Virus record (IMG/VR): IMGVR_UViG_3300046616_000054 | Location: 1 to 44,005 of that record | Origin: a virus | DNA length: 44,005 bases | Strand: one strand, 5' to 3' | Shown: positions 4,085-31,367 of the stretch, piece by piece | Layout: every line of letters starts with the position of its first letter | Numbering within the stretch: the first letter of the stretch is position 1 | Made by a program: the position numbers and the translations under genes | The notes under the pieces: model-generated | Seen by the model: only the letters and a program-made list of their open reading frames with translations | Told to the model about the DNA's origin: nothing | Database searches by the model: none

Positions 4085-6531
4085 TGGCCCGCATCTCTGG
4101 TGTCATCTCGAACTTCATCAATGGCGTCTCGCAGCAGGCAATGGCCCTGCGAATGGCGTCTCAGGGTGACCTGCAAATCAACGCACACTCCACGATCGTC
4201 GATGGTCTCATCAAGCGGCCTCCGCTGGTCCGTGGCCCTCAGTTCGTAGGTGACTTCACCACCAACCCAATCCACTGCCACCCGATCAACCGGGACGTGA
4301 CGGAACGCTACGAGACCATCTGGTCGAAGGCCGGCGTCCGCGTCTTCACGCTCGACGGTGTGGAACGACAGGTGACCTATCCCGGCGGTCTGCAGTACCT
4401 GCAATACGTAGGCACCCTAAAGGAACCCCCGTACCGCACGGTCACCATAGGCGACTACACCTACCTGACGAACACCCAGCGCTCCGTCCAGATGGATGCT
4501 AACGCGCTTGAGCGGTCCCAGCCTTACGAGGCGATGATCTACGTCATGGCCGGCAATTACGGCAAGACCTACAGGATCTTGATCGACGGTGTGGAATACG
4601 CCAACTACTCGACGCCTGACGGTACCTCTGGTGCCCAAAGTCCCGGCGTGGATACGGCCTACATCGCACGGCGTCTGGCGACCGGCGAGACCAAGGATCT
4701 CGGCAACACAGTCAATGGAAACGCGGCGTGGGTCTACAAGGCCACCGACAAGAACCTGACGACCACCACGTCTGGCTTTAGTATCTCGGCTGGCAAGGGT
4801 GTCATCTACCTGTCGCGCTCGACGCCGTTCACGGTCACCGTGGAAGATGGCTACAACGGCCACGCCATGAAGGCCATCCAGTACGAGACCCAGGACTTCT
4901 CCGATCTCCCGGCCTACGGTTATCCCGGCGTGGCTGTGAAGGTGAAGGGCTCGGTCACCACGGCCTATGACGACTACTATGTCCGCTTCACGCCCAACGA
5001 TAGCTCCTATGGTATCACTGGTGGCAAGTGGGTGGAATGCGCCAAGCCTGGAAGCCGTCTGGCCTTCGACGCTGAGACGATGCCCCACGCCCTGGTCCGT
5101 CAGTCCGATGGCACGTTCGCCTTTGGTCCTGTGACCTGGGAGCGCCGCCGCTGCGGTGACGAAGTGACCAGCCCGAGCCCCTCGTTCGTTGGCTCCCCGA
5201 TCAATGAGATCTTCTGGTTCAAGAACCGCCTGGGCTTCCTCTCTGGGGAGAACAGCATCTTGGGCAGGGCAGGGGGTCCGTTCGATTGGTGGAAGACGAC
5301 CGCCACCACGACCATGGACGACGACCCGATCGACGTGGCCTCTTCGGAGACCGACGTGTCCGTGCTCAGATCTGCGGTGGGCTTTGCTGACCGGCTGATC
5401 CTGTTCTCCGACCAGTCCCAGGCTATGCTCGCCGGCAATGACACGCTCACCTACAAGACGGTCAACATCAAGCCTTCGACGGCTTACAGCATGTCGTCCA
5501 GGTGCAGGCCGGTGGTCAATGGCGACAACGTCTACTTCCCGGTGAAGCGAGGCCAGTTCTCGATGATCCGCGAGTACACCATCGACCCCGCAAGCGACCT
5601 TGGTAAAGCCGAGGACATCACCGGCAACGTGCCGCAGTACCTCCGTGGCGAAGTGATCAAGATGCGAGCCTCTACCCATGAGGACGTCTTGGTCATCCAG
5701 ACTGACGAAGGTGGCGGTGGGCTCTACGTCTACAAATACTTCTATCAGGACCGCAGCAAGGTTCAGTCCTCCTGGTCCCGCTGGGAGTTCACCGACGTCA
5801 CCAACATCTTCGACTTCTGGTTCATCGAGAGCAAGCTCTACGTCCTGCTCAGGTCAGCCTCGGGTCGCGTGTGGCTGGAGACCGTAGACATCCAGGCCGG
5901 CAACGTGGACGACGGCATGACCTTCCTTGTGAACCTCGACCACCGTGTCTTGCTTCCTGGGACAGGCCGCACCTACGACCCGCTGACCGATCGGACCACG
6001 GTACCTGGGGATCTCACCGGTAACACCTTCGTCCTCGTAAGTGGCGCTGGTGGAACGAACATGGGCCCTGGTCTACTGCTGCATCCGCTGAGCGTCACCT
6101 CGGTGTCCTTCCAGCTCGTCGGTGACCTGCGTGACCTCCCGATCTACGTCGGTCGTGACTACACCTCCAGGTTCCGGCTCTCGACGATCTACCTCAGAGA
6201 GACCGGCCCACAGGGCAACCCGATCGTCAGGACCGAAGGCCGGCTGCAGTTGATCAAGCTGCTCGTCCGCTACGGCAAGACCGCCTACCTCAGGGCAGAG
6301 GTCTCGCTGCAGGGTATGGCCCCGCGCTCCTACGCGACCAATGGCCGTGTCATGGGCGACCCGATGAACCGTGCCGACAGCATCACGCTGGGCGACGGTG
6401 TCCTCTCGGTGCCGCTGCTCGGCCAGAACGACAGGATCTCTGTGGAGCTGGTCAACGACAGCTACCTGCCTTCCTCGATCATCTCTGCGGAGTGGATCGC
6501 CAACTTCAACGCTAAGACAAAGAGGGTCTAA
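4084..6531 (+). CDS. tail tubular protein B (T7 gp12-like nozzle protein)
   Basis: At 815 residues this is the size of T7 gp12 (794). It begins with the family hallmark ISGVISNFINGVSQQA and continues with LQINAHSTIVDGLIKRPP. The interior has FWFKNRLGFLSGENS and DDDPIDVASS, also typical. The product forms the conical tail nozzle on which the fibres sit. It shares bases with the genes on both sides (TAATG overlaps), consistent with one morphogenesis operon. Confidence 0.95.
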   Translation: MARISGVISNFINGVSQQAMALRMASQGDLQINAHSTIVDGLIKRPPLVRGPQFVGDFTTNPIHCHPINRDVTERYETIWSKAGVRVFTLDGVERQVTYPGGLQYLQYVGTLKEPPYRTVTIGDYTYLTNTQRSVQMDANALERSQPYEAMIYVMAGNYGKTYRILIDGVEYANYSTPDGTSGAQSPGVDTAYIARRLATGETKDLGNTVNGNAAWVYKATDKNLTTTTSGFSISAGKGVIYLSRSTPFTVTVEDGYNGHAMKAIQYETQDFSDLPAYGYPGVAVKVKGSVTTAYDDYYVRFTPNDSSYGITGGKWVECAKPGSRLAFDAETMPHALVRQSDGTFAFGPVTWERRRCGDEVTSPSPSFVGSPINEIFWFKNRLGFLSGENSILGRAGGPFDWWKTTATTTMDDDPIDVASSETDVSVLRSAVGFADRLILFSDQSQAMLAGNDTLTYKTVNIKPSTAYSMSSRCRPVVNGDNVYFPVKRGQFSMIREYTIDPASDLGKAEDITGNVPQYLRGEVIKMRASTHEDVLVIQTDEGGGGLYVYKYFYQDRSKVQSSWSRWEFTDVTNIFDFWFIESKLYVLLRSASGRVWLETVDIQAGNVDDGMTFLVNLDHRVLLPGTGRTYDPLTDRTTVPGDLTGNTFVLVSGAGGTNMGPGLLLHPLSVTSVSFQLVGDLRDLPIYVGRDYTSRFRLSTIYLRETGPQGNPIVRTEGRLQLIKLLVRYGKTAYLRAEVSLQGMAPRSYATNGRVMGDPMNRADSITLGDGVLSVPLLGQNDRISVELVNDSYLPSSIISAEWIANFNAKTKRV

Positions 6532-17885: not shown

Positions 17886-18320
17886 TACCTAAGGGGAACG
17901 TAGGCCACCATGGTCCCACCCGAGGGAGACCAAGGCCACCAGGGTCATACCCAGTAGCCATTGGGTTAGGGGCCACCCCGAGAGGGGAACCCCCAGTAGG
18001 GTCTACCTTAGCCAGCCTTAGGGGAACCAGGGTTGACTTTGGTGGCAAGGGTGTCCGATGTTTTCACCAGAAATCTACGAAGTGGCATCATATAGATGGA
18101 CCGCGCGGAAGACCCCCCTGGTACCCCCTCGATCGGCTAGGCGGCTGGCCGGATTGTCCCACGGATTAGCCCACGGGGCCAGATTATCCAATTAAATCAA
18201 TGGTATCCACTAGATCTAACATCCTATTCCCTATGGTTTCATGGGTGGCGAGGGCTATCTGTGCATTCAATACCGTTCAAGGTTGAACATGTTTAGCTCG
18301 CGTGTGAGATGATCGGTGTT

Positions 18321-18329
18321 TGATACAAT
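18321..18329 (+). promoter_or_regulatory. possible host sigma-70 extended -10 promoter
   Basis: TGATACAAT has TG one base ahead of TACAAT (five of six matches to TATAAT). No good -35 box stands at 16-18 bases. It is one of few promoter-like words in the presumed early promoter region. Confidence 0.3.
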
Positions 18330-18491
18330 CGTATGCGATCTAAGCGCACAAGACACCATAGCCCACGATAGGCGAACGCACGACACCATAGCCCACGATA
18401 GCAGCGCTCAAGATATCATCGGTTCCTGCCTAATCGAGCACGATAGTAGCGCATACGATCCCTTAGGTCATCGATAGTATCGCATCCGATC
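18328..18491 (+). repeat. cluster of ~30-bp period direct repeats and an inverted repeat
   Basis: A 20-bp word GACACCATAGCCCACGATAG is repeated exactly at 18352-18371 and 18382-18401 (period 30). A second pair, CGATAGTAGCGCATACGATC (18441-18460) and a copy with two changes (18472-18491), has period 31. ATCGTATGCG at 18328-18337 is the exact inverse of 18450-18459. The layout is iteron-like. Confidence 0.85.
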
Positions 18492-18551
18492 TAATCGTGT
18501 CCGCATGCATCCCTGGTAAGCGTGGTTTGGTCGACCGGCGCAGCGCTGGCA

Positions 18552-18584
18552 GACCGTGGTTGACCGTGGTTGACCGTGGTTGAC
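18552..18584 (+). repeat. three perfect 10-bp tandem repeats GACCGTGGTT
   Basis: Three exact units at 18552-18581 and a partial fourth (GAC). Each repeat contains TTGACC or TTGACG, a -35-like word, one helical turn apart. No matching -10 box stands at the right distance, so a protein-binding array is as likely as a promoter cluster. Confidence 0.85.
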
Positions 18585-18919
18585 GCTCGAGCCCCTTACG
18601 CGCGTTCAATATCCCGCGTGTATCGCGTACATGCGCTTTCTGTCTCTTCAGTGAAGGCATTAGATTTGCAGTGTCATGCAGAAATATCGATGTGTTTTCA
18701 AAGGCTTGTCATTTTATTATCGGTTGGATGAAAAAGACTGTTGCAATAGTGGGCGGGTTATGAGATCTTTCAATCACACCAAACGAAGCGCCTCGGCGGG
18801 ACGGGGTGGCGGGGAGCTTCCTCCTCACTGGCACTAAGCAGCGAGCCTGACAACCTCACTGAGTTCTTTGACAACTGAATAATTACCGGACGTCACCCAG
18901 TCCTTCAACATAGGTGAGC

Positions 18920-19028
18920 GCCACGCCGCAAGGCTGGCAGGTAAGGAAACCGAGCCTAAAGGCTGCGAAAGCCGATCGGAACCAACACTGAATTGCTTAC
19001 TTCTCAGCCGGTCTAACCACGGGCTGAG
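18920..19028 (+). promoter_or_regulatory. structured leader RNA of the early operon
   Basis: A hairpin at 18920-18938 has stems GCCA/TGGC and GCC/GGC with a GNRA loop GCAA. Two mutually exclusive four-pair stems share GGCT (18961-18964): AGCC at 18953-18956 or AGCC at 18970-18973. A perfect seven-pair stem CTCAGCC/GGCTGAG closes at 19003-19028, 29 bases before the first early ATG. The stems are seen; a regulatory role is inferred. Confidence 0.45.
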
Positions 19029-19057
19029 CGATGATCAATTCAACCATAGGGCAACCA

Positions 19058-19159
19058 ATGTTCAACATTACCACGCGACGGGTCGGCGGTCTGCGCTTCC
19101 TCAAGATTGGCCGCTTCACTCTCATGTTCTGCCTCTCGAAGGATTACAAGCCGCTATGA
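19058..19159 (+). CDS. small basic early protein, 33 aa
   Basis: The ATG follows ATAGGGCAACCA. The product FNITTRRVGGLRFLKIGR... is rich in Arg and Lys and ends in SKDYKPL. From memory, such 'TTRRVGG-LRFLK-GR' peptides begin early operons of related alphaproteobacterial podoviruses; this was not checked. Role unknown, possibly a host-takeover peptide. The stop overlaps the next ATG (ATGA). Confidence 0.7.
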   Translation: MFNITTRRVGGLRFLKIGRFTLMFCLSKDYKPL

Positions 19160-19230
19160 TCACCGCCGCTGTCGTCATCGCCGCGATCATCCTCTTCTTC
19201 CATTGCAACGACGTTAGCCACCTCCGCTGA
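19156..19230 (+). CDS. single-span membrane peptide, 24 aa
   Basis: It starts in an ATGA overlap with the gene before it. Residues 2-15 (ITAAVVIAAIILFF) form one hydrophobic segment, followed by HCNDVSHLR. Function is unknown. Very short, but coupling and composition support translation. Confidence 0.55.
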   Translation: MITAAVVIAAIILFFHCNDVSHLR

Positions 19231-19256
19231 CCTGAGTTGCCTTTAGGTAGCGCCCG

Positions 19257-19364
19257 TTGTTTCCCTGCAACGTGGCTCTATCCAAGGCGCATCTCGCCGC
19301 TGCCGCGTCCGCTCGAGCCTTCATGATCAACGGTCTGACAAGCCACATGAAGAGGGACCACTGA
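19257..19364 (+). CDS. possible small early ORF, 35 aa
   Basis: Frame open from TTG 19257 (or GTG 19272) to TGA 19362-19364, product with ALSKAHLAAAASARAFMING. There is no clear Shine-Dalgarno sequence. The 224 bases between 19230 and 19454 would otherwise be empty. Kept as a weak candidate. Confidence 0.3.
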   Translation: MFPCNVALSKAHLAAAASARAFMINGLTSHMKRDH

Positions 19365-19453
19365 GCCTGTCGTAATGGCTCCATCGGAACCACAGCCGCA
19401 CCATAGCTGCGCCTTACTCTCTTCGCTTCTCCAACCATTGCATGAGGATAACC

Positions 19454-20221
19454 ATGTTCCAAGGAACACTGATCCGATCGGGCAACAATGCCAAGACTGT
19501 CAAGGGCGACGGCGTCTATGAAACCGCCATCATGTACCTTGCACCATCGAGCCTGTCGGGGACGAATGTCTGCCCGATGGCTGAGCAGGCCGGATGCATT
19601 GCCGGCTGCCTGAACACTGCAGGCCGGGGCCGCTTTAGCCAAGTCCAGACGGCTCGCATCAATAAGACCAAGCGCTACTTGGCTAGCCGCACCGCGTTCA
19701 TGGCTGATCTGGTCGCGGATCTCGAGCGCTTCGCCGCTTACTGCCACCGCAAGGGCGTCAAGCCTGCCGTGCGTCTCAATGGCACCAGCGACATTCAATG
19801 GGAGGTCGCCCACTTCGCCAGCCGTGGCGACCAGCGCGGCTCTGTCTTCGAACTGTTCCCTGAGATCCAGTTCTACGACTACACCAAGGTCTACAAGCGG
19901 GTCTATCGTGACCTCCCGGCCAACTATCGGTTGGTTTTGAGCTACTCGGCGGCTCACAGCGCCTATTCGGATGCTGTCGTAAAGGCCGCAGCGGAGACCG
20001 GCTCTAACATCGCTGTTGTCTACCGCGACAAAGACACTCGCGACAACGCCATGCCATCCGGTGACGCCCTGGGCTACGACGACGGCTTCAAGCGCATCTA
20101 TCGCCAAGTCATCGACGGGGACAGCGACGACATGCGCTTCCTTGATCCGACCGGCGTCATCGTCGGGCTCTATGCCAAGGGCGCAGCTAAGCGCGACACC
20201 TCGGGCTTTGTCGTGGGCTAA
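19454..20221 (+). CDS. GP88 family early protein
   Basis: I choose ATG 19454 because GAGGA stands five bases upstream; ATG 19442 has no ribosome site. The 255-residue product carries the hallmark of the GP88 family (PF17338): a Cys-rich segment NVCPMAEQAGCIAGCLNTAG with three Cys, then GRFSQVQTARINKT and RLNGTSDIQWE, then YDYTKVYKRVYR. The family is widespread in phages and its biochemical role is unknown to me. The conserved Cys cluster could bind metal, which is inference. The leader contains TCCAACCATTGCAT, repeated before the next gene. Confidence 0.85.
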   Translation: MFQGTLIRSGNNAKTVKGDGVYETAIMYLAPSSLSGTNVCPMAEQAGCIAGCLNTAGRGRFSQVQTARINKTKRYLASRTAFMADLVADLERFAAYCHRKGVKPAVRLNGTSDIQWEVAHFASRGDQRGSVFELFPEIQFYDYTKVYKRVYRDLPANYRLVLSYSAAHSAYSDAVVKAAAETGSNIAVVYRDKDTRDNAMPSGDALGYDDGFKRIYRQVIDGDSDDMRFLDPTGVIVGLYAKGAAKRDTSGFVVG

Positions 20222-20263
20222 TGCCTGCACTATTCCAACCATTGCATCAACGGGAACAACGCA

Positions 20264-20833
20264 ATGACCACCATCCGCAAGCAGGCCAATCAGGCAAAGC
20301 GCGACATAGCCGCCGCTGACGCTCCGTTCACCCACGCCACCCGCGATGAAATCGTCCGCTCACTAAAGAGGGCCGGATACAAGGCCTTAGGCAGGGGGGC
20401 CTTCGCGGTCGCCCTGGCGCATCCCGATCGCCCTGACGTGGTCATCAAGGTAGGCCAGCGCAATAGCTCGAAGTTTCAGCATCTCACCGACCACTTCCCT
20501 GAATACGTCGACTTTCTCAAGGGTACGGGGACACGCTCAACGTTCGCCCTGAAGGTCTACCACATGGAGTGGATCTCAGGCCGCGAGGGCGGCACCTACG
20601 CCGCTGTTGTCGAGCGCTGCAAGGCCAGCAAGGGCAGTAAGGCGCAGAAGGCTGTCACCTATAGCAGCTACGTGGTCAGCGGCAGTTCATGGGACAGGGC
20701 CGTGACCGCCTCGTCAAAGCCGGCCACCCGCTTCATCCGTCGCTTTGCCGATCTAGGCGCTCTCGATCTCCACGCGAAGAACGTGATGCTCCGCGCCAAT
20801 GGCCAAGCCGTCATCACCGACCCGCTCTGCTGA
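20264..20833 (+). CDS. minimal protein kinase-like early protein
   Basis: A 189-residue protein with the landmarks of the kinase fold in order: glycine-rich loop GRGAFAVA (Gly43-Gly45), VVIKV with Lys62, catalytic loop LDLHAKN (Asp168, Asn173) and a TDP (Asp186) in place of DFG near the C-terminus. It is much shorter than T7 gp0.7 but sits at the same early place. The T7 kinase phosphorylates host RNA polymerase and other proteins. Here the activation and substrate-binding lobe after Asp186 is absent, so it may be a pseudokinase or a kinase of a small substrate. Start follows CGGGAACAACGCA. Confidence 0.75.
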   Translation: MTTIRKQANQAKRDIAAADAPFTHATRDEIVRSLKRAGYKALGRGAFAVALAHPDRPDVVIKVGQRNSSKFQHLTDHFPEYVDFLKGTGTRSTFALKVYHMEWISGREGGTYAAVVERCKASKGSKAQKAVTYSSYVVSGSSWDRAVTASSKPATRFIRRFADLGALDLHAKNVMLRANGQAVITDPLC

Positions 20834-20842
20834 GGACAACCA

Positions 20843-21007
20843 ATGTCAACCTACGTCATCGCCAAGGTCTCCCGCAGCAAGTGGGAGCTTCGCCACAGCC
20901 AACCGGGGTGGATCGGCACCCACATCGGTTTCTATCCCTCCAGTAAGAAGGCCGAGGTCACCGCCAGGGTGCTCGCCGGTCGAACAGGAAAGGTCGTGAT
21001 CCAGTGA
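20843..21007 (+). CDS. small unknown early protein, 54 aa
   Basis: The ATG follows AGGACAACCA. The product is basic, with alternating polar and aromatic residues (STYVIAKVSRSKWELRH), compatible with a small beta fold. The stop overlaps the next GTG. No family recognised. Confidence 0.75.
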   Translation: MSTYVIAKVSRSKWELRHSQPGWIGTHIGFYPSSKKAEVTARVLAGRTGKVVIQ

Positions 21008-21267
21008 GCCAGTCAATCGATCGCTGGTGGGAGACCATCAAGACCCACTACGGCACCCTCGACAACTTCGACGATGCCGGCACCGTTCGCATCATGCGTA
21101 ACCAGTGCCGCGCTGTGGTTGCTGACAACCTTGTGACCCTCGTCCTTCTCGAAGACCACCCCGAGGAGGCCGCTGACTGGGAAGCCAGCACGAAGGACGA
21201 ACAGGACAGGGTCAACGAAGTCCTCGCCGCATGCTGCGCGTGGCTGAAATCAAGAGGTCTCGAATGA
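21004..21267 (+). CDS. small acidic helical early protein, 87 aa
   Basis: Starts with GTG in a GTGA overlap. The product is acidic and mostly helical (for example DHPEEAADWEASTKDEQDRV) with a Cys pair in ACCAW. No known motif. The stop overlaps the next ATG (ATGA). Confidence 0.78.
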   Translation: MSQSIDRWWETIKTHYGTLDNFDDAGTVRIMRNQCRAVVADNLVTLVLLEDHPEEAADWEASTKDEQDRVNEVLAACCAWLKSRGLE

Positions 21268-21527
21268 AAAACATCCTCGTCAAGAGCACCACCAAGACGT
21301 TCTTCTGCCACCCGACGACCGGCGCAAACATCGGCCATACCCGCTACGGCAGCCACCTCATCCTCAGGTTCGACCTGCCGGAGTTCATCGAAGCCCACGG
21401 CTTCCCGCTGCCTGAGACGATCGACATCATCGACCTTGGCTATTGGTACGTCCCTTTCGACGACCTGCTTGCCGCGCCGCTCTATGAGCCGCCGGTCTGG
21501 CACACCCGTGAGCAGGAAGCCGCCTGA
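21264..21527 (+). CDS. unknown early protein, 87 aa
   Basis: I choose ATG 21264, in an ATGA overlap and behind AAGAGG, over an upstream in-frame TTG at 21231. The product starts KNILVKSTTKTFFCHP and has a centre of IDIIDLGYWYVPFDDLL. No membrane span or known motif. It is followed by three coupled membrane peptides. Confidence 0.78.
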   Translation: MKNILVKSTTKTFFCHPTTGANIGHTRYGSHLILRFDLPEFIEAHGFPLPETIDIIDLGYWYVPFDDLLAAPLYEPPVWHTREQEAA

Positions 21528-21616
21528 TGGACATCACCACCGCATTCGCCGCCGCGATCTTCTTCGTCGGCTTCATCCTCTGGCTTCAAGTGAAGGCAAT
21601 CACCACCAATGACTGA
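21527..21616 (+). CDS. single-span membrane peptide, 29 aa
   Basis: Starts in a TGATG overlap. One hydrophobic segment (FAAAIFFVGFILWL) then a short polar tail. First of three tiny membrane proteins in a row. Function unknown. Confidence 0.6.
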   Translation: MDITTAFAAAIFFVGFILWLQVKAITTND

Positions 21617-21734
21617 ATTGATCCTCCTCTGGTTCGCTTGGCACGTCGTCGCGCCGATCTTCTTCATCCTCGCGGTCGCCACGCTCGTCCTCATTGTCTG
21701 GCTGATCCGCAGGATGCGGAGGATGCTGAAGTGA
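21609..21734 (+). CDS. membrane peptide with basic C-terminus, 41 aa
   Basis: Overlaps the gene before by 8 bases. The product is hydrophobic from residue 4 to 32, ending RRMRRMLK, so the tail should face the cytoplasm. Function unknown; superinfection exclusion or inhibition of a host membrane system are options without direct support. Confidence 0.65.
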   Translation: MTELILLWFAWHVVAPIFFILAVATLVLIVWLIRRMRRMLK

Positions 21735-21853
21735 TCGCCGCCGCTCTCCTGACCACCCTTCACTACCTCGTCGTCCTCGGCGGCGCTACGGCGCTCGTCC
21801 TGGCCTTCGTGGTCATCGTCATCTGCCTCAAGGACAACTCACCGTGCATCTGA
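21731..21853 (+). CDS. membrane peptide, 40 aa
   Basis: Starts with GTG in a GTGA overlap. Nearly all of residues 2-32 are hydrophobic (LVVLGGATALVLAFVVIVI), followed by CLKDNSPCI. Function unknown. Confidence 0.62.
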   Translation: MIAAALLTTLHYLVVLGGATALVLAFVVIVICLKDNSPCI

Positions 21854-21996
21854 ACCATCCCAAACTCGTCGCCGCGCGTAAGGCAGCGGTCGCCCACCTC
21901 GGCAACGTTCGTATCCCTTCGCCGGCTGCGGCCATGGTCAAGAACTGCGCCTATCACATCACCGGGGCTGCGGCTTCCGGCGTTCGCTTCGCATAA
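21844..21996 (+). CDS. small basic protein, 50 aa
   Basis: Starts with GTG 21844 inside the gene before it (10-base overlap). The product is basic and Ala-rich (HPKLVAARKAAVAHLGNVRI). Function unknown. It closes the chain of coupled small genes. Confidence 0.55.
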   Translation: MHLNHPKLVAARKAAVAHLGNVRIPSPAAAMVKNCAYHITGAAASGVRFA

Positions 21997-22022
21997 CCAT
22001 CGACAACCAAAGGACATCTGAC

Positions 22023-22553
22023 ATGAACACGAAACTCCTCCTCGGCAAGACCCTCACCACCATCTATGACGTCCAGGTCATGATCGTCGACTTCACCGCC
22101 TGGGGCGACATCGTTGGTATGCGCTCCGATGGCGACGGCTGGCGCGATGACAACGGCTACGTCGAAAAGGCCAAGGACCTCGGCCTGACCGTGCCCAATG
22201 ACCCGACATTCTGGTACATCGGAGATTGGGAGATCAAGGGCGTCATGGTCCCGACGACCACCTACGTCGCTCAGCCGGTCGACGACTTCATCGCCAAGGA
22301 AGAGGCACGGCTCGCTGCCCTGCCGGTCATCCCTGCCGAACCGATCGAACCCACGGCACCGATGACAGCTCAGGTCCTCCAGATGCTGCGCAAGAAGGGC
22401 GATGTGACCACGATCGAGGCCCAGGGTGTCCTGCGCTGCCGGTCGCTGTCCAAGCGCATCACCGAACTGAAGCGCCTCGGCCACAAGATCACCCGCACAC
22501 TGCACGAAGACCACACCGGTCAGCGGTATGCGCGGTACATTCTGGCCGCGTAA
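22023..22553 (+). CDS. HTH_39-type DNA-binding protein
   Basis: The ATG follows AAAGGACATCTGAC. Residues 1-100 have no recognised motif. The C-terminus (about 110-176) matches the HTH_39 helix-turn-helix type of phage proteins: MTAQVLQMLRKKGDVTTIEA, then RCRSLSKRITELKRLGHKI and GQRYARYIL. It may regulate early transcription. The inverted repeat immediately downstream (22557-22614) is a possible target, by position only. Confidence 0.85.
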   Translation: MNTKLLLGKTLTTIYDVQVMIVDFTAWGDIVGMRSDGDGWRDDNGYVEKAKDLGLTVPNDPTFWYIGDWEIKGVMVPTTTYVAQPVDDFIAKEEARLAALPVIPAEPIEPTAPMTAQVLQMLRKKGDVTTIEAQGVLRCRSLSKRITELKRLGHKITRTLHEDHTGQRYARYILAA

Positions 22554-22556
22554 GGG

Positions 22557-22614
22557 TTCTGTTTCGGTTCACACTTCGTTCGAGGGTACAGAGTGTGACC
22601 AAACTGCGACAGAA
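22557..22614. promoter_or_regulatory. large interrupted inverted repeat, candidate operator
   Basis: GGTTCACACT (22566-22575) is inverse to AGTGTGACC (22592-22600) with one bulged T. The match extends with GTTT outside and TTCTGT (22557-22562) to ACAGAA (22609-22614). It lies between the early operon and the lysogeny genes, just before an AT-rich stretch (CATAAT at 22643-22648) that may be a -10 box. Confidence 0.6.
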
Positions 22615-22663
22615 CGACTCACGATCACGTTTATCTGTAAATCATAATATATCATGATGGACA

Positions 22664-22984
22664 GTGAAAACGTTTACATTTATGAGATCACCAAGCCAGG
22701 GGGCAGAGGGTTTTAGCGTTTCCTCGAACAGCCTTGGTGATCTCCTAACCCCCAACAAGTCTAAGAACACTCCCCCTAACGAGGACGCAAGCATCGTGTA
22801 TGCAACTGCCCGCGACTACTTTGAGAGCATCAACCCCGAGGCGGCGGATCTGATGCCAGACTACGACGAAGACACTGCATGGCTCATTGCGCAGTCAGAA
22901 GCGCGGGGCCTGCGTACAATCTTTCCGACAGACGCGACGGAACCGTTATTTACGGTAGAACTTTTGCACGAACGCTTTAATTAG
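22664..22984 (+). CDS. unknown acidic protein at the start of the lysogeny module
   Basis: Frame open from GTG 22664 (ATG 22682 is the alternative) to TAG 22982-22984, 106 residues. The C-terminal half is acidic (PEAADLMPDYDEDTAWLIAQ). Codon use is less GC-rich at third positions than neighbouring genes, suggesting recent gain. There is no known fold. Position between an operator-like repeat and a MarR-like gene makes a regulator possible; that is inference. Confidence 0.6.
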   Translation: MKTFTFMRSPSQGAEGFSVSSNSLGDLLTPNKSKNTPPNEDASIVYATARDYFESINPEAADLMPDYDEDTAWLIAQSEARGLRTIFPTDATEPLFTVELLHERFN

Positions 22985-23070
22985 CCTCTTGCAATTATCT
23001 CGTTCTTGAGGAAGATTGCCCCTGTGAAAAGAAAATAAGCATCAACCGAGTGAAGGTGGATACACACACT

Positions 23071-23418
23071 ATGGTACAGGTCCAGAACAGCACCGCCAAG
23101 GCAGCCCGCAAGGCCGCATCAATCATCGAAGAGTTCCGCAAGCTGAACGCTGAGATGCAGGCACAACAAATGGCGATCTTCCTCGCCGTGGTAGCAAAAC
23201 CTGAGAGCACAATCACCGATCTCGCGAACGTCACCGGTCACTCGACTGGCACCGTATCGCGGAACGTCGCTGCTCTCAGCCAGACGCATCGTAAAGGCAT
23301 GCCGGGTCTCGATATCCTTGTCGCCAAGGAAGACATCATGGACCGGCGCAACAAGCGGATCAGCCTGACACCGAAGGGTGTGCGCGTGATGGCCGCACTG
23401 GAGGCATTGCTTGATTGA
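23071..23418 (+). CDS. MarR-like winged-helix transcriptional regulator
   Basis: I choose ATG 23071 (AAGGTGG about 12 bases upstream); GTG 23050 is in frame with a poorer site. The 115-residue product has a helical N-terminus, then MAIFLAVVAKPESTITDLAN, the recognition helix region GHSTGTVSRNVAAL, and a wing DIMDRRNKRISLTPKGVRVM, all in MarR order. It overlaps the integrase start, so the pair is one operon. A role in the lysis-lysogeny decision is inferred. Confidence 0.82.
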   Translation: MVQVQNSTAKAARKAASIIEEFRKLNAEMQAQQMAIFLAVVAKPESTITDLANVTGHSTGTVSRNVAALSQTHRKGMPGLDILVAKEDIMDRRNKRISLTPKGVRVMAALEALLD

Positions 23419-24403
23419 AGAACGTGGTCAAAGCTACCGCGCCAAGTTCATGGTGGCGGGGCAGAAATTCATGGCTTCCTTCGCCAAACGCGAAGATGCC
23501 GAGGACTGGGAAACGGAGACACGGCGGCGCATCAAGCGTGGCCTTCCGGTCGAGCAGCCGGTCGCCATGATCGGCGGCGGTGACGTGGGGACTGTCGGGA
23601 ACACGGTCAAGCGCGTCATCAAGGACTACTGGGAACCGTCGCGAGGCGGTGAGGGGCAGATCGCCAACGCCAACTACTTCCTGAAGTGGGTCGGGCCGGC
23701 CACCTCGAACACCGAGGCCTTCTCTGAGAAGACCCAGGCCGACTTCAGGCAACATCTGATCGACGAGCGTGGCGTAGCGCCGACCACGGTCAACCGCTAC
23801 ATGTCGATGATCCGCACGGTCTGCGACAAGTCGAAGATCAAGTTGGACTTCGATCTGCCCCACGACAGCAGGGCGGAAAGGGAGAACGGTCGCGATCGGT
23901 TCTTTACCAAGGCCGAGTTCGAGACCATCGTCACCTGGATGACCGAGAATGGCTTCCACAGACAACGAGACTTCTTCATCTTCCTGACGCACTCCGGTGC
24001 CCGTCCGTGGACCGAGGGTGAGCCGCTGAAGTGGGCCGATGTCCGCGACGGTCAGGTCACCTTCCGCAGGACGAAGACCGGTCGCCCTCGCACCATCCCT
24101 CTCTCACCGAGGGCGCTTGAGGCGGTCAACAATCAGCGCGAGCTGGGCCAGAACGGGCCGTGGACGGGCATGCGTTGCCGCACCATGGTCGACTTCTGGA
24201 AGGTCGTGAAGGCCAACATCGCCGGCCTCGACGACACGGTCATGTACACCTGCCGGCACACATGTGCTTCCTGGCAGGCGCAGGACGGTATATCGCTGTA
24301 CCATATCGGCCAGTGGATGGGTCACACCAACCCGCTGACGACGCAGCGCTACGCCAAGCTGGCACCGGAGCATCTCCAGGCCAACATGGTGTCGTTCCAG
24401 TAA
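23411..24403 (+). CDS. int: tyrosine-type integrase
   Basis: Starts with TTG 23411 seven bases behind GGAGG, overlapping the regulator gene by 8. The 330-residue product has an N-terminal arm-binding part (RAKFMVAGQKFMASFAKRED), a core-binding helical domain (about 60-160) and the catalytic domain: Arg in THSGARP, beta-hairpin Lys in RRTKTGRPRTIPL, Arg-His in YTCRHTCASW, His in MGHTNP and nucleophile Tyr in QRYAKL. The first His of the usual HxxR box is Tyr, a tolerated change. It should recombine the attP region directly downstream with a host tRNA-Leu gene. Confidence 0.95.
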   Translation: MIEERGQSYRAKFMVAGQKFMASFAKREDAEDWETETRRRIKRGLPVEQPVAMIGGGDVGTVGNTVKRVIKDYWEPSRGGEGQIANANYFLKWVGPATSNTEAFSEKTQADFRQHLIDERGVAPTTVNRYMSMIRTVCDKSKIKLDFDLPHDSRAERENGRDRFFTKAEFETIVTWMTENGFHRQRDFFIFLTHSGARPWTEGEPLKWADVRDGQVTFRRTKTGRPRTIPLSPRALEAVNNQRELGQNGPWTGMRCRTMVDFWKVVKANIAGLDDTVMYTCRHTCASWQAQDGISLYHIGQWMGHTNPLTTQRYAKLAPEHLQANMVSFQ

Positions 24404-24493
24404 TACCTTGACTACCTGGGTCAGCGGCGGTAAACGCCGGTCGCTCGGGTTCCACACTAGATCCCAGAGAGCCTCGCGGTCTGGTCTAAGGTG

Positions 24494-24811
24494 TGGGAAA
24501 ATGGGTGGGAGAATTTCTCCCATGGGATAAAATCGGCCTCGCGGCTGTGATGGAATTGGTAGACATGCGGGATTTAGGTTCCCGTGCCTTTTCAAAGGCT
24601 TAGGAGTTCGACCCTCCTCAGCCGCACCATCCGAGATTTTCCCATGGACCAGATTTAGGTTCCCACCCGCAACCTTCTCCATAGTGCAACTATCCCACAA
24701 AGCGAAATAATTACAGCCCACTAGCGGCGGCATTCCATGGGAAAATGGATGTCTCCACTGGTGCAATAGATTTGTGGGAAAATCCCCGATGGGAAAAAAG
24801 GATGGGAAAAT
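24494..24811. other. attP: attP region with repeated arm-type boxes
   Basis: The word TGGGAAAAT occurs exactly at 24494-24502, 24738-24746, 24775-24783 and 24803-24811, and inverted at 24636-24644. Near copies lie at 24506 (TGGGAGAAT), 24523 (TGGGATAAAAT) and 24790 (TGGGAAAAA). The array surrounds the tRNA and two copies of GATTTAGGTTCCC (24571-24583 and 24652-24664). This is how integrase arm sites flank a core. The last boxes reach the ATG of the next gene. Confidence 0.8.
24541..24629 (+). tRNA. tRNA-Leu(UAG), complete with encoded CCA
   Basis: All arms fold: acceptor GCGGCTG/CAGCCGC (7 pairs), anticodon stem CGGGA/TCCCG with loop TTTAGGT and anticodon TAG at 24575-24577, a class II variable arm GCCTT/AAGGC, and T arm AGGAG-TTCGACC-CTCCT. 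CCA is at 24627-24629. It lies 137 bases behind the integrase gene and overlaps the presumed attachment core. It may serve as a tRNA for CUA codons, restore the host gene after integration, or both. Confidence 0.95.
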
Positions 24812-25327
24812 ATGAAGAAACTGATCGCAATCGCCTCAGCGCTGACCCTGCTCGCCGGCACCGTAGAGGCTGGTTCTCGAAGCTCGGGCGGTGGCTTTCG
24901 GAGCAGCTCACGCTCCTTCAGCCGGTCGTACTCGGCCCCTCGCACCTATGGCTCGTCGTCGAGGAACAGCTATGGCTCGCGCAGCAACACGACCGTGATC
25001 CAGAACCACAACTACGGGGGCGGAAGCTCGGGGATGGGCAGCGGCATGTTCTGGGGCTACCTCCTGGGCAACTCGATGGCATCGCATCCTGCACCGGCTG
25101 CGCCCTCTGTCGTAGTTGTACCCCAAGGTGCTTCTCCTGCGGCACCCGTTTACCCAAACGTCTCCACTGTTGCACCCGTTGCACCAGCGCAGCCACAGGT
25201 CATCGAGCAGCCACCTGAGCAGGACGAGGGCGGCATCGGGTTCTTCGGCTGGCTGATGATCCTCCTGGGTCTCGGCGGTGCGGGATGGTGGACCTACCGC
25301 TTCATGAACCGGAGGGCGATCGCATGA
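24812..25327 (+). CDS. exported Ser/Gly-rich protein with C-terminal membrane anchor
   Basis: The ATG directly abuts the last TGGGAAAAT box, whose GGATGGGAAAAT also provides the purine-rich ribosome site. Residues 1-20 are a signal peptide (KKLIAIASALTLLAGTVEA, then GS). A Ser/Gly/Arg-rich region (about 21-75), a Pro/Ala/Val-rich stretch and one membrane span (IGFFGWLMILLGLGGAGWW, about 141-160) with basic end follow. The protein should be anchored with most of it in the periplasm. Possible roles are superinfection exclusion or lysogenic conversion, by position only. Confidence 0.82.
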   Translation: MKKLIAIASALTLLAGTVEAGSRSSGGGFRSSSRSFSRSYSAPRTYGSSSRNSYGSRSNTTVIQNHNYGGGSSGMGSGMFWGYLLGNSMASHPAPAAPSVVVVPQGASPAAPVYPNVSTVAPVAPAQPQVIEQPPEQDEGGIGFFGWLMILLGLGGAGWWTYRFMNRRAIA

Positions 25328-25533
25328 AGGCACACCTCCTCACCATCACCATCATCGTGACCTTCGTCGCCTTGCTGACCGCAAGCATCCTGTCCGTGGA
25401 CTTCGCCGCGATCTTGGGGCTCATCTTCGTGGTCTGCGGGGTCTCGTTCGTGGCCTGGGCGATCTATCTGGTCATCCTCGGCTCAGTCCGCATCCACCTC
25501 TACGGGAACCGATATGGCCGCCACTACTACTAA
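25324..25533 (+). CDS. two-span membrane protein, 69 aa
   Basis: I choose ATG 25324 in an ATGA overlap with the gene before. Two hydrophobic segments (about 5-25 and 28-55) are followed by a basic Tyr-rich tail (GNRYGRHYY). Coupling suggests it works with the exported protein. Confidence 0.78.
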   Translation: MKAHLLTITIIVTFVALLTASILSVDFAAILGLIFVVCGVSFVAWAIYLVILGSVRIHLYGNRYGRHYY

Positions 25534-25711
25534 CCCACGCTGCCTGATCAGCTCCGTCCGTCTCAAGGGTGACCAGCCGGCTGCCTTCAAGACACGCACG
25601 TCCTGCCATGGGTCCAATCCCTATGGCGGGGTCAACGACTACTTCGTCAGACACGCCGATGGTTCCTACTTCATCGCGCCGCTGCTCCTCTTCGTAAGGG
25701 CGACCAGATGA
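25514..25711 (+). CDS. unknown small protein, 65 aa
   Basis: ATG follows GGGAACCGAT and overlaps the membrane protein by 20 bases. The product has two Cys (PRCLISSV, TSCHGSNPYGG) and a hydrophobic end. No family recognised. Confidence 0.68.
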   Translation: MAATTTNPRCLISSVRLKGDQPAAFKTRTSCHGSNPYGGVNDYFVRHADGSYFIAPLLLFVRATR

Positions 25712-25830
25712 ACGACCACGTCACCGAAGTCTACCGGTGGGGACAGTGGTGGCGAAAGATCAGCCCTGGCTGGATCAAAGGCCGGCGACCCACAATCAGA
25801 TACATCCCGCTCGATAGGAGAGCCGCATGA
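25708..25830 (+). CDS. small basic Trp-rich protein, 40 aa
   Basis: Starts and ends in ATGA overlaps. The product is rich in Trp and Arg (YRWGQWWRKISPGWIKGRR), suggesting nucleic-acid or protein contact. Function unknown. Confidence 0.68.
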   Translation: MNDHVTEVYRWGQWWRKISPGWIKGRRPTIRYIPLDRRAA

Positions 25831-26513
25831 CCAAATACACCCCCGCAATCTATGGTGCCGCTCCGGTCGACCTGGGCCGCGTTGATCTCGACGTTTCGGA
25901 GATGATGTTCTGGCTCTATTGCCCGATCAAAATCCCCGGCGCGATCGCTGAGCATTACCCTGACCAGCTCGAAAAGTACGTCCACCTGATCAATGCCGTC
26001 TACGATGACGTATGCAAGACCTATGGCATTGGTCGGTGGCGTGACAGCTACGTCTACCTCTCGGCCAAGGTCACCCACGTCACCCCAGACGCTCCAGGCA
26101 ACCGCCCTGGCTGGCACAGCGACGGCTTCCTGACGGACGACCTGAACTACATCTGGGCCGATCGCAACCCGACCGAGTTCTTCGTCAGAGACGACCTGAT
26201 GACGACTTACTCTGACCACGCCCAGTCGATGAGGCACTTCGAAAGCCACATTCAGTGGGGCATCGAGCGTCTCGGGTACCAGACTGAACACGCCAAGGTC
26301 AACCACCTCTACCGGCTCGACCAGACGAACATCCATCGCGTCTCCAAGAACGTCGAGAGCGGCAAGCGGGCCTTCCTCAAGGTGTCGCTCTCCGACAAGC
26401 CGTACTTCCAGCTAGGCAACTCGATCAACCATCACCCTCTGTTGAGCGATCACCCCAGGCCGACCGTAGAACGCCAAGCCGAGCGCAACTGCCCGCAGGC
26501 GGTGGCGGCATGA
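25827..26513 (+). CDS. putative 2OG-Fe(II) dioxygenase
   Basis: A 228-residue protein with the iron and cosubstrate ligands of 2-oxoglutarate dioxygenases: His97-x-Asp99 in PGWHSDGF, distal His170 in NIHRVSKN, and Arg181 eleven residues later in SGKRAFLKVS, the usual spacing for the 2OG-binding Arg. Segments around these (YVYLSAKVTHV, AFLKVSLS) look like the strands of the double-stranded beta helix. Possible substrates are a DNA base, an RNA or a host protein. Family level is inferred from motif spacing only. It sits in the coupled gene string leading to the RNA polymerase. Confidence 0.7.
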   Translation: MTKYTPAIYGAAPVDLGRVDLDVSEMMFWLYCPIKIPGAIAEHYPDQLEKYVHLINAVYDDVCKTYGIGRWRDSYVYLSAKVTHVTPDAPGNRPGWHSDGFLTDDLNYIWADRNPTEFFVRDDLMTTYSDHAQSMRHFESHIQWGIERLGYQTEHAKVNHLYRLDQTNIHRVSKNVESGKRAFLKVSLSDKPYFQLGNSINHHPLLSDHPRPTVERQAERNCPQAVAA

Positions 26514-26701
26514 AGGACTTCGTAGACCAGGAACTCTTCATCGGTGATCTCGTCGTCGAGGGAGGTGGCTCACGCCGAGCAGGCCTTCATGGCCCGTACG
26601 TCGTCGTCGGCTTCAGCGAGAAGATGGTGAAGGTACGGGTCAATGGTGCCCATTCACCCTATAGGGCACCACAGTCCCTGGTGAAGCTCGGCTACACATG
26701 A
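26510..26701 (+). CDS. small SH3-like protein, 63 aa
   Basis: ATGA overlap at both ends. The product has FIGDLVVEG, YVVVGFSEKMVKVRVNG and SLVKLGYT, which suggest a small beta barrel of the KOW/SH3 sort. Function unknown. Confidence 0.7.
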   Translation: MKDFVDQELFIGDLVVEGGGSRRAGLHGPYVVVGFSEKMVKVRVNGAHSPYRAPQSLVKLGYT

Positions 26702-26886
26702 AGGACGCCTACGTCCACTCTGGCGAGCTGCTGATCATCAAGCAGCGGGGCCTTCATCGCTGGACCACGCATCCTAAGCGGGATGACTTCGCGGTCTGGT
26801 ACTCGAATAAGATCGTTGCGCAAGGTGGTCGAGAGATGACCGAGCGCGTCTTTATGGAAAGGTCAGCATGTTCTGGAAATCCTTGA
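26698..26886 (+). CDS. unknown small protein, 62 aa
   Basis: Coupled to the gene before by ATGA and overlapping the next by 19 bases. Basic, with HSGELLIIKQRGLHRW. No family recognised. Confidence 0.65.
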   Translation: MKDAYVHSGELLIIKQRGLHRWTTHPKRDDFAVWYSNKIVAQGGREMTERVFMERSACSGNP

Positions 26887-27131
26887 ATGACTTCCTCAAT
26901 CCGCCCCCACGTAAGACGCCGGCTGAGATCGAGGCTGACCGCAGGCAGCGCCTGATCGACGAATGCAGCTTCGGCCACTACCCCGGTGCCCTAACCATGC
27001 CCATACATCCCATGAAGCGGGACAGGCTGTCGTGCATGTTCTGCCCGTGTGACCTCCCACTGCCTAAAGACTACCGCATCAAGCGCGGCGGTTCGCTCGG
27101 CGGCGGCTGGGATACTGTGGAGGTTGGATGA
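26868..27131 (+). CDS. small protein with Cys cluster, 87 aa
   Basis: ATG follows AAAGGTCAGC. A helical charged region (KTPAEIEADRRQRLIDEC) is followed by CMFCPC near residue 57-62, which could bind zinc together with the Cys near 33. Function unknown. Confidence 0.68.
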   Translation: MFWKSLNDFLNPPPRKTPAEIEADRRQRLIDECSFGHYPGALTMPIHPMKRDRLSCMFCPCDLPLPKDYRIKRGGSLGGGWDTVEVG

Positions 27132-27301
27132 CGCCCGATCCAGAATGGAAGCCGCTCTGGGGATTCGTTGACCCACCACCAGCACCACCAGGGTACTCGA
27201 TCGAGGTCGAGCGCGATTGCTTCCTGGGGTTCGTGATCTCCTACCGCTACGTTCCTGATCTCGACACCCAGGCGCGGATGGCCATTGAGGGCTATAATTG
27301 A
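27128..27301 (+). CDS. small proline-rich protein, 57 aa
   Basis: ATGA overlap at its start and TTGA overlap with the polymerase at its end. The N-terminal half is Pro-rich (FVDPPPAPPGYS), the rest is beta-like. Its translation probably drives polymerase translation by coupling. Confidence 0.68.
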   Translation: MTPDPEWKPLWGFVDPPPAPPGYSIEVERDCFLGFVISYRYVPDLDTQARMAIEGYN

Positions 27302-29763
27302 CACCATACGAACGCCAAATCCAACTCGAAATAACCATGGCCGGCCTCGGTAGCGAGAGGTTCCGCGTTCGCTACGATAAGAACATGGACCAGAACCGAG
27401 CGTCCCAGACGGACAGCGGCTTGGTCCTCGTCAAGCGGGCCATCACACCACTAGCGGAGGCTATCGAGGCCTTCGTCGACGATGTCTACTCTGGTCGGCC
27501 TGGGCCCAAGGCGGTCGCCGCCAAGCTGATCAAGGGTATGAACTACGGGGCGGTCTCCCTGATCGTCACCCGCATCATCCTCAACCGGCTCATGTCGAAG
27601 AAGGCCGTCGGCTACACCACCCTGGCACGGCTCGTCGCGGTGGGGCTCGAGGATGAGGCCCGCTTCAGCAAGTTCGAGACCGAGCACCGAGACCAGTTCC
27701 GGCTGGTGGAGGACCGCCTGTCGAAGGACGGGGCAACCGAAGCCCACAAACGCACCGTGCTGGCCTACGCAATGGGCAAGTACAACGTGCCGTGGGATCG
27801 CTGGGCCGGCACCGATCGGCTGCACCTCGGCTTCAAGATGATCGAGATGTTCTGCGACACTACAGCCCTGGCCGAGATCCTCACCGGGGCAGACAGCGCC
27901 GACAAGGATGTCAGGGTCGACCAGTATGTCGTCCAGATCACCGAGAAGGCTGCCAAGTGGGTCGAGGCGGCGGCGCTCAAAGGCGAGGAGCTGGCTCAGT
28001 TCTTCATGCCGATGATCATCCAGCCGAAACCATGGGCTGGCCTCAGTGGCGGCGGGTACTTCTCGAATGCCGTCCGGCCACTGCCACTCGTCAAGCGGTC
28101 CAGGCAGGAGCATCGCCGGCTGCTGGAGGGTGCCGACCTCAGTGTCATCTACGACGGCCTCAACGCCATCCAGGGCACGGCATGGCAGATCAATCCTGAA
28201 GTCCTCTCGGTCATGCGGCATCTGATGTCGGTTGGCTCGGGGGGGGTGGGGCTGGTCAGCCTGGACGACATCCCGCTACCGGACAAACCCTTCGACATCG
28301 ATACCAACCTGGAGGCCGCGAAGAAGTGGCGCTGGGAGGCGAGGGACGTCCACAACGAGAACTACGCCCTCAAGCTGGCCCGCAAAGGTCAGAACGATCT
28401 GATGGAGGTGGTCAACCGGTTCGAGCATGAGCCGCGCATCTTCTTCCCTCACAATCTCGACTTCCGAGGACGGGCGTATCCAATCCCATCGCTGCTGCAT
28501 CCGCAGGGCACCGACGTCGTCAAGGGTCTGCTCCGGTTCTCCGAGGGTCTGCCTTTGGGTGACGATGGTGAGCGCTGGCTGGCCATCCACGGGGCGAACT
28601 GCTTCGGGGTGGATAAAGTCTCGTTCGACGATCGCGTGGCCTGGGTCGAGGATCATGAGGTGCTGATTGCCGAGGTTGCCAGGGACCCGCTCGGGTTCAA
28701 ATGGTGGACCAAGGCCGACAGCCCCTGGTGCTTCCTATCGTTCTGCTTCGAGTGGGCCAATCGGCACACCGAGGGCTTCGTGTCGCACATCCCTGTGGCG
28801 CTCGACGGCTCCTGTAATGGCCTGCAGCACTTCTCTGCCATGCTGAGAGACAGCATCGGTGGCGTTGCGGTGAACCTCACCGACAGCGAGAAGCCGCAAG
28901 ACATCTACCAACGTGTTGCGGACGTTGCCATGGCCAAGCTGCGTCTAATTGCTTGCACTGATGCAGTAGTTGACGAGATGCAGAAGGATGGCAAGCCGAC
29001 GCCATTCGATCGGCAGCGATGGGCGGAAGGCTGGGTCCACTTCGGGCTCAACCGGAAGACCACCAAGCGTCCGGTCATGGTCCTGCCATACGGCGGCACC
29101 CCTCGGTCCTGCCTGAAGTACGTCCAGGAGGCTGTGGCCGAGCGGATCAAGGACGGGCAGGAGCACAACTTCGGTGACGAGCTGGGCAAGGCGACCGGCT
29201 TCCTGAGCACTCTCATCTGGGAGAGCATCGGGGACGTCGTCGTGGCTGCCAGGGATGCCATGGCGTGGCTCCAGGGTGTCGCTCGGGAGATGTCGAAGCA
29301 CAACCGGCCTCTGATGTGGGAGACGCCCTCGGGCTTCATCGCATACCAGGACATCCGGGATGTGTCGGCGCGGCGGATCAAGACCAAGCTGAACGGCACC
29401 CTGGTCTACCCGCGCCTACCGGAAGAGGCCGATACGATCAACTCGTCGAAGCAGGCGACGTCGATCAGCCCCAACTTTGTCCATAGCCTCGACGCGGCGG
29501 CATTGTTCCGCACCGTCTATGCTCTGTTCCTCCAGGGGATCACCTCGTTCGCCATGATCCACGACAGCTATGGCACCCACGCCTGCCACGCCACCAAGCT
29601 GTCCAACGCGCTCCGTTCCGAGTTCGTCGCGATGTACCGAGGGGATGTTCTGACAGCCTTCCTCTCCCTGCTCGACACCGACGACACCGACATCAAACCG
29701 AGGCCCCCGATGGGAACCCTCGATCTACAGGAGGTACTCAAAGCCAAATACTTCTTTGCCTAA
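27298..29763 (+). CDS. single-subunit DNA-directed RNA polymerase (T7 gp1-like)
   Basis: An 821-residue T7-type polymerase. TTG 27298 is chosen because GAGG stands seven bases upstream and because the N-terminal helix (RQIQLEITMAGLGSERFRVRY) aligns with T7 residues near 30-50. Motifs: PHNLDFRGRAYP, motif A VALDGSCNGLQHFSAMLRD (Asp503), motif B KRPVMVLPYGG (Lys590, Tyr598), motif C FAMIHDSYGT (His755, Asp756), and the C-terminal Ala after FF, like T7 FAFA. It should transcribe middle and late genes from the repeated 16-bp element. No stem-loop terminator separates it from the genes behind attP. Confidence 0.97.
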   Translation: MTPYERQIQLEITMAGLGSERFRVRYDKNMDQNRASQTDSGLVLVKRAITPLAEAIEAFVDDVYSGRPGPKAVAAKLIKGMNYGAVSLIVTRIILNRLMSKKAVGYTTLARLVAVGLEDEARFSKFETEHRDQFRLVEDRLSKDGATEAHKRTVLAYAMGKYNVPWDRWAGTDRLHLGFKMIEMFCDTTALAEILTGADSADKDVRVDQYVVQITEKAAKWVEAAALKGEELAQFFMPMIIQPKPWAGLSGGGYFSNAVRPLPLVKRSRQEHRRLLEGADLSVIYDGLNAIQGTAWQINPEVLSVMRHLMSVGSGGVGLVSLDDIPLPDKPFDIDTNLEAAKKWRWEARDVHNENYALKLARKGQNDLMEVVNRFEHEPRIFFPHNLDFRGRAYPIPSLLHPQGTDVVKGLLRFSEGLPLGDDGERWLAIHGANCFGVDKVSFDDRVAWVEDHEVLIAEVARDPLGFKWWTKADSPWCFLSFCFEWANRHTEGFVSHIPVALDGSCNGLQHFSAMLRDSIGGVAVNLTDSEKPQDIYQRVADVAMAKLRLIACTDAVVDEMQKDGKPTPFDRQRWAEGWVHFGLNRKTTKRPVMVLPYGGTPRSCLKYVQEAVAERIKDGQEHNFGDELGKATGFLSTLIWESIGDVVVAARDAMAWLQGVAREMSKHNRPLMWETPSGFIAYQDIRDVSARRIKTKLNGTLVYPRLPEEADTINSSKQATSISPNFVHSLDAAALFRTVYALFLQGITSFAMIHDSYGTHACHATKLSNALRSEFVAMYRGDVLTAFLSLLDTDDTDIKPRPPMGTLDLQEVLKAKYFFA

Positions 29764-29765
29764 AC

Positions 29766-29791
29766 GTCTCCACTGATGCAACTATCGCAAC
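29766..29791 (+). repeat. copy of the CTCCACT...TGCAA leader repeat
   Basis: GTCTCCACTGATGCAACTATCGCAA resembles stretches before the ssDNA-binding gene (31331-31358), in the attP region (24675, 24751) and elsewhere. Here it precedes a candidate promoter by about 10 bases. Confidence 0.6.
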
Positions 29792-31330: not shown

Positions 31331-31367
31331 CTCTCCACTATTGCAACAATCGCACAAAGGAATACAA
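31331..31367 (+). promoter_or_regulatory. leader repeat before the ssDNA-binding protein gene
   Basis: CTCTCCACTATTGCAACAAT followed by CGCACAAAGGAATACAA. The first part recurs at 13236 and 16024 and in altered form at 42504, each time ending in an A-rich AGGAATA/AAGGAAATA ribosome site. It may be a processing or regulatory signal. Confidence 0.5.

Follow-up and report, generated by a model that had tools for sequence, protein, structure and literature searches.

T7-like phages were long considered strictly lytic, and their prophages raise the question of how a self-activating RNA polymerase gene is silenced in the integrated state. The maps presented here bear on this question. They start from a viral sequence of 44,005 nucleotides (IMG/VR record IMGVR_UViG_3300046616_000054, positions 1 to 44,005; the whole stretch is called the window below), in which a phage attachment site (attP) lies between the presumed early region and the gene for a T7-type RNA polymerase. 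The first-pass annotation of this DNA proposed that integration at attP moves the two to opposite ends of the prophage and may itself switch off the lytic programme. The order early region, attP, polymerase held, with the regulator, integrase, attP and polymerase on one strand, and in 25 genomes with related prophages the regulator-integrase side and the polymerase gene were indeed found at opposite prophage ends, the latter beside host DNA. The separation is real, but it is unlikely to be a sufficient switch. The features concerned are as follows.

18300-19440, + strand: presumed early leader and promoter region with repeats, behind the terminase gene; no host promoter above chance
20264-20833, + strand: early gene akin to phage protein kinases inhibiting host transcription (T7 0.7 type; phrog_15752, E 8e-15)
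23050-23418, + strand: MarR-like transcription regulator, immediately 5' of the integrase gene (phrog_9665, E 9e-30)
23411-24403, + strand: tyrosine integrase (PF00589, E 9e-12; phrog_1, 4e-38)
24494-24811, no strand assigned: attP with seven arm-type-like sites; every motif copy of the window lies here; conserved in L003
24541-24629, + strand: complete tRNA-Leu(UAG), predicted replacement gene (ARAGORN; cloverleaf fold with long variable arm)
24650-24662, + strand: attP core, same sequence as the anticodon loop region in tRNA-Leu(UAG) of rhizobia; CAGATTTAGGTTC at both prophage ends in Rhizobium sp. BK376
24753-24765, + strand: putative phage-type promoter in the attP-polymerase interval (CTCCACTNNTGCA); L009 has an exact copy at the corresponding position
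24812-25327, + strand: small protein of unassigned function, exported according to the first-pass annotation; its gene adjoins attP on the polymerase side; open frame, no family match
25162-25174, + strand: second putative phage-type promoter, within a fast-changing open frame; exact in L002, L003 and L009
25827-26513, + strand: phage protein of unassigned function (phrog_1843, E 1.5e-36)
27298-29763, + strand: T7-type single-subunit RNA polymerase, some 2.6 kb to the right of the core (PF00940, E 2e-104; phrog_414, 5e-254)
29768-29780, + strand: putative phage-type promoter directly 3' of the polymerase gene; motif match, others at 31333 and 13237

The T7-type polymerase and the order MarR-like regulator, integrase, polymerase on the same strand place the window in the temperate Autographiviridae module. 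Homologues of the regulator comprise Lo5R7ANS_11 (2e-24), LUZ100 gp10 (7e-24), P-SSP7 011 and HTVC109P gp09. The nearest records to the window phage, which is T7-like, are the rhizobial phages Lo5R7ANS, RHEph01 and Pasto.

Prophages of relatives are cut between integrase and polymerase

The polymerase was searched for in one genome per species of 84,980 bacterial and archaeal species, which gave 79 loci. In 25 genomes the integrase and polymerase genes were present on one contig in the same orientation, at opposite prophage ends about 36-43 kb apart. In relatives the polymerase gene comes to lie 0.2-2 kb from host DNA. The crossover between the integrase and the first gene on the polymerase side, which the first-pass annotation had suggested looking for in host genomes, was thus found in prophages of relatives. 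A further comparison took in the contigs that extend 5 kb or more upstream of the polymerase gene. An integrase gene was located within 4 kb upstream in 19 of 22 virus contigs, whereas 54 of 63 genome contigs had none in that interval. The cut between the two genes is kept across many lineages and different tRNA targets.

The junctions were clearest in Rhizobium sp. BK376, where the host tRNA-Leu(UAG) gene is split at the anticodon loop. After its first 41 nt the sequence passes directly into phage DNA that corresponds to the part of the window right of the core, and the polymerase gene begins 2.0 kb downstream of that junction. The other prophage end, located on another contig, comprises the integrase gene and an entire tRNA-Leu(UAG) of phage origin, together with the core and the remaining 3' half of the host tRNA gene. 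The core is 13 bp long and identical to that of the window, and neither junction restores an intact tRNA. The same site is probably used by the window phage in its own host.

A tRNA-Leu gene split by a core of 11-17 bp and not rebuilt was found in G001, G002, G010, G011, G014 and G015. No undivided host tRNA-Leu(UAG) gene remains in G010, G011 or G001: some 43 kb separate the two halves in the first two, and in G001 they lie on different contigs. The integrase end of G006 carries an intact tRNA whose 5' part is of phage origin, and G007, G009, G017, G018, G019, G031 and G043 resemble classical tRNA reconstruction. Automatic core calls in G005, G030, G035 and G039 corresponded to unrelated tRNA clusters and were excluded, and no core was found for G003, G012, G021, G023, G025 and G044.

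The attachment site

The location of attP at 24.5-24.8 kb was borne out by a clustering of arm-like sites that exceeds chance. All seven copies of TGGGA[T/A]AA in the 44 kb genome fall at 24494-24811, starting at 24494, 24523, 24644 (reversed), 24738, 24775, 24790 and 24803, so that three lie left and four right of the core CAGATTTAGGTTC. The region is nearly invariant in L003, an 80 % relative, while the L003 tRNA has a compensatory stem change. The core repeats the anticodon-loop sequence of the tRNA gene and lies 20 bp beyond the end of that gene. A core within the tRNA gene itself was considered and ruled out, since it is the downstream copy around which the arm sites are grouped and at which the prophage junctions fall.

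The same attP plan was seen in Lo5R7ANS, with GTGACAA arms around CAGATTTAGGTTCC. In L090, a relative with 84 % polymerase identity, similar arm-like sequence was noted at 5550-5790, without tRNA-Leu or the Leu core between the integrase and polymerase genes; the att core of L090 seems to have been swapped for one of another target.

A replacement tRNA-Leu gene

The tRNA-Leu(UAG) at 24541-24629 is predicted to replace the host gene broken by integration, an arrangement termed tRNA-dependent lysogeny, and may be required for lysogeny. In several relatives the core is short and lies in a host tRNA gene that is neither reconstructed nor backed by a second intact copy, and the phage-borne tRNA, like that of the window, has the anticodon of the split host gene. 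This match was found in all six prophages with such a split gene (G001, G002, G010, G011, G014 and G015). Five lysogen genomes have two UAG arms each, the split host gene and the phage copy, the latter being the only intact tRNA-Leu(UAG). Among 50 contigs with the integrase gene just upstream of the polymerase gene (two of them counted twice), 22 have tRNA in the module, and tRNA-Leu is always included.

An origin of the tRNA as a relic of imprecise excision was rejected for this group, because the gene is complete, its anticodon matches that of the split gene and its identity to the host gene is 76-85 % (four phage or prophage copies). These data suggest that the tRNA-Leu adjoining the integrase gene of such phages serves as a replacement rather than being a relic. 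With the Rfam tRNA model the L003 copy, 94 % identical to that of the window, scored 53 bits and the window copy was not matched; ARAGORN calls both.

Putative promoters on the two sides of attP

The motif CTCCACTNNTGCA occurs in five exact copies in the window, all on the + strand, against 0.05 expected; the counts refer to the exact pattern, as an iterated promoter matrix was overfitted and was dropped. Its T7-like CACT element, strand bias and position mark these motifs as putative phage promoters. The two positions before the polymerase gene (24753 and 25162) recur in the BK376 prophage. With them the polymerase unit looks self-activating, silent without polymerase and explosive with it. 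Within the polymerase gene a promoter-like sequence, TTGCACTGATGCA, was noted at 28953-28965; it is present in L002 and L003 too, with the exact motif in L009 and L090.

Host-type promoters were sought with two scans against shuffled sequence, one for the sigma-70 consensus and one for the rhizobial CTTGAC/CTATAT pattern. Neither found one above chance between attP and the polymerase gene, where a strong promoter would have undermined the proposal; a TATAAT immediately 5' of the polymerase start has no matching -35 element. The host-type promoters that the first-pass annotation placed at 18.3-22.6 kb could not be confirmed, since the early region scored no better than the shuffles in both scans. 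Promoter activity of this region is presumed.

Is integration a switch?

Integration detaches the regulator-integrase side, and everything upstream of it, from the polymerase gene. A working model of the lysogeny module (regulator, integrase, attP, polymerase) can be outlined as follows. Recombination by the integrase would take place between the short core of attP and the anticodon loop of a host tRNA-Leu gene and split that gene, and the phage tRNA-Leu next to the integrase gene would take over, both steps being visible in relatives. Cut off from the early promoters, the polymerase gene of the lysogen would be left with its own promoters, silent without polymerase, and the circuit would stay off. 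Restart of polymerase synthesis from the host tRNA promoter may be prevented, in many relatives, by a terminator close behind the core. Excision would rejoin the early region and the polymerase gene across attP, and the positive feedback would fire. A repressor acting in trans, probably the MarR-like protein, would work alongside this lock; both the silence of the polymerase gene in lysogens and the role of the regulator are suppositions here. The reading that we favour, and to which we give about an even chance, is that the separation is a contributory cis lock and not the switch, with a trans repressor needed for establishment and immunity.

Several observations weigh against a decisive role of the separation. 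Early host promoters were identified by neither scan. The host tRNA gene does not keep one orientation from prophage to prophage. In about half of those whose junction was mapped, integration brings the host tRNA promoter in toward the polymerase gene (BK376, G002, G006, G010, G011, G014, G015, G019 and four more loci); this promoter faces away in G007, G009, G017, G018, G022, G031 and G043, and would do so in Pasto, to judge from its attP. A terminator-like hairpin 52-94 nt past the core accompanies a host promoter directed at the polymerase gene in about 10 of 15 cases and one directed away from it in 1 of 8, but the comparison was made post hoc on related sequences (one-sided Fisher test about 0.02, calculated by hand) and the association is only suggestive; the hairpin is a putative terminator. 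The window and its closest kin, such as L003, have no such hairpin, so in them transcription from the host tRNA promoter could proceed in the direction of the polymerase gene. In Pseudomonas petrae (L053) and a Bacillota genome (L040) there are T7-like prophages with the order host genes, integrase, polymerase and with the attachment site on the other side of the integrase gene; these keep integrase and polymerase at one prophage end. Finally, the gene order of the window is shared by cyanophages P-SSP7 and S-TIP37, which integrate, yet stable lysogens were not found (PMC8776855).

These points bear unequally on the alternatives. That integration alone is the switch, by removal of the early promoters, as the first-pass annotation proposed, fits the gene order, the prophage maps and the lack of an internal host promoter above chance. 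It is nevertheless very unlikely, since the separation has its effect in cis and once integration has occurred: it can work neither before integration nor in trans and gives no protection against superinfecting phage. Both phage-type promoters stay with the polymerase gene, so the polymerase of a superinfecting phage would restart the prophage. Integration also brings in a host promoter, integration of the cyanophages is not followed by stable lysogeny, and the integrase gene adjoins one for a MarR-like regulator, as in phages where this is the proposed repressor of the polymerase promoter. The opposite view, that the separation has no regulatory role, attP lying beside the integrase gene as usual and the order being kept by descent, while a MarR-like trans repressor of the polymerase promoter maintains lysogeny alone, has a substantial though less than even probability. 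The layout is common to the group by descent, the regulator is conserved beside the integrase gene, the repressor model has been published for LUZ100 and Pasto (PMC10134795), and T7-like prophages without separation exist. It accounts less readily for the post-core hairpin being found mainly where the host promoter faces the polymerase gene, which suggests that read-through at the junction matters, and for the retention of the integrase-polymerase cut over many lineages with various tRNA targets.

In BK376 and others the polymerase gene is preceded by the 5' half of host tRNA-Leu and the sequence upstream of that half, which could also mean that the polymerase gene is deliberately placed under the host tRNA promoter, enabling the prophage to sense host growth. 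This idea is hardly credible, as the promoter faces away in about half of the prophages and a hairpin usually intervenes where it does not. The cis-lock reading can be extended by the replacement tRNA. If the lysogen depends on phage tRNA-Leu, the integrase-tRNA end must stay transcribed, and attP between tRNA and polymerase would keep this transcript off the polymerase gene; integration would be the cis lock, the post-core terminator an insulator, and excision the event that fires the switch. In this complete form the scheme is tentative and rather unlikely. The maps yield a concrete layout that can be tested: host tRNA promoter, core, terminator, phage promoters, polymerase.

The record and the early leader

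The record ends overlap by 127 bp (1-127 and 43879-44005 are identical), giving a closed genome of about 43.88 kb. The record is the free form of the phage with attP intact. It is of the IMG/VR type and was classed without end repeats despite the identical ends.

Several elements were noted in the early region. At 18349-18490 there are degenerate direct repeats around CACGACACCATAGCCCACGATAG, present in relatives in other copy numbers, possibly a replication or packaging signal. Tandem units centred on GTGGTTGACC (3 x 10 bp) follow at 18547-18584. A boxA-like GTTCTTTGACAACTGAATA is located at 18863-18881, its CTTTGACAA being retained in L002 and L003; it might mark an antiterminated early transcript, and a stricter pattern of this leader had no match in three Rhizobium host genomes. 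An imperfect phage-type promoter, CTGCACTATTCCA, lies at 20225-20237 and is shared with L002 and L003.

Comparison with known systems

The order regulator, integrase, attP, polymerase was already known (PMC10134795, PMC8776855). Pseudomonas phage LUZ100 resembles the window in its MarR-like regulator, integrase and polymerase with its own phage promoter (PMC10134795). Its regulator was proposed to repress the polymerase promoter, and its transcriptome showed that integrase transcripts mostly end at a terminator before the polymerase gene, which is preceded by a phage promoter (PMC10134795). Unlike the window, LUZ100 has terminator T4 directly after the integrase gene, and no lysogens were obtained; its authors regarded the tRNA-Leu as a relic of imprecise excision (PMC10134795). 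Cyanophages P-SSP7 and S-TIP37 share the order regulator, integrase, attP, polymerase and a core in tRNA-Leu, and no replacement tRNA was found in their integrase-polymerase interval. Mesorhizobium phage Lo5R7ANS has the same succession of regulator, integrase, tRNA-Leu(UAG), core and polymerase; it differs in restriction and methylase genes between integrase and attP, in its GTGACAA arms, in a weak post-core hairpin and in a polymerase of 55 % identity.

In the literature no account was found of integration disconnecting a polymerase gene from early promoters, though an earlier statement is possible in the work on Pasto (Boeckman et al.), nor of a terminator insulating the polymerase gene from a host tRNA promoter or of promoter exchange with a terminator. 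The likeness to the integration-dependent immunity of mycobacteriophages, invoked in the first-pass annotation, is loose. In phages such as BPs, as described in PMC4557955, integration itself likewise alters expression of a control gene, but the attachment site lies within the repressor gene; here attP (24494-24811) interrupts no control gene, the integrase gene ending at 24403 and the regulator gene at 23418. The conjugative element Tn916 is closer. Transcripts of its transfer genes arise only when they can cross the joined att site (Celli and Trieu-Cuot 1998, as cited in PMC6540685); promoter and effector genes flank att and are joined only when the element is excised. The gene order of the window is comparable, with the presumed early promoter region in the place of the promoter. 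The effectors of Tn916 are transfer genes and not a self-activating polymerase, and its transcripts were measured.

Both the layout and the tRNA replacement have precedents. tRNA-dependent lysogeny is known in actinobacteriophages (Guerrero-Bustamante and Hatfull 2024, PMC10865867), and in Lo5R7ANS-like prophages of Sinorhizobium meliloti AK21 and RU11/001 tRNA-Leu(UAG) is inactivated and a phage replacement is present (Vladimirova 2024, PMC11476347). The present maps extend it to further T7-like prophages of alpha- and gammaproteobacteria. In contrast to the actinobacteriophages, these are T7-like podoviruses of proteobacteria that use mostly tRNA-Leu, and their att site also parts the early region from the polymerase gene.

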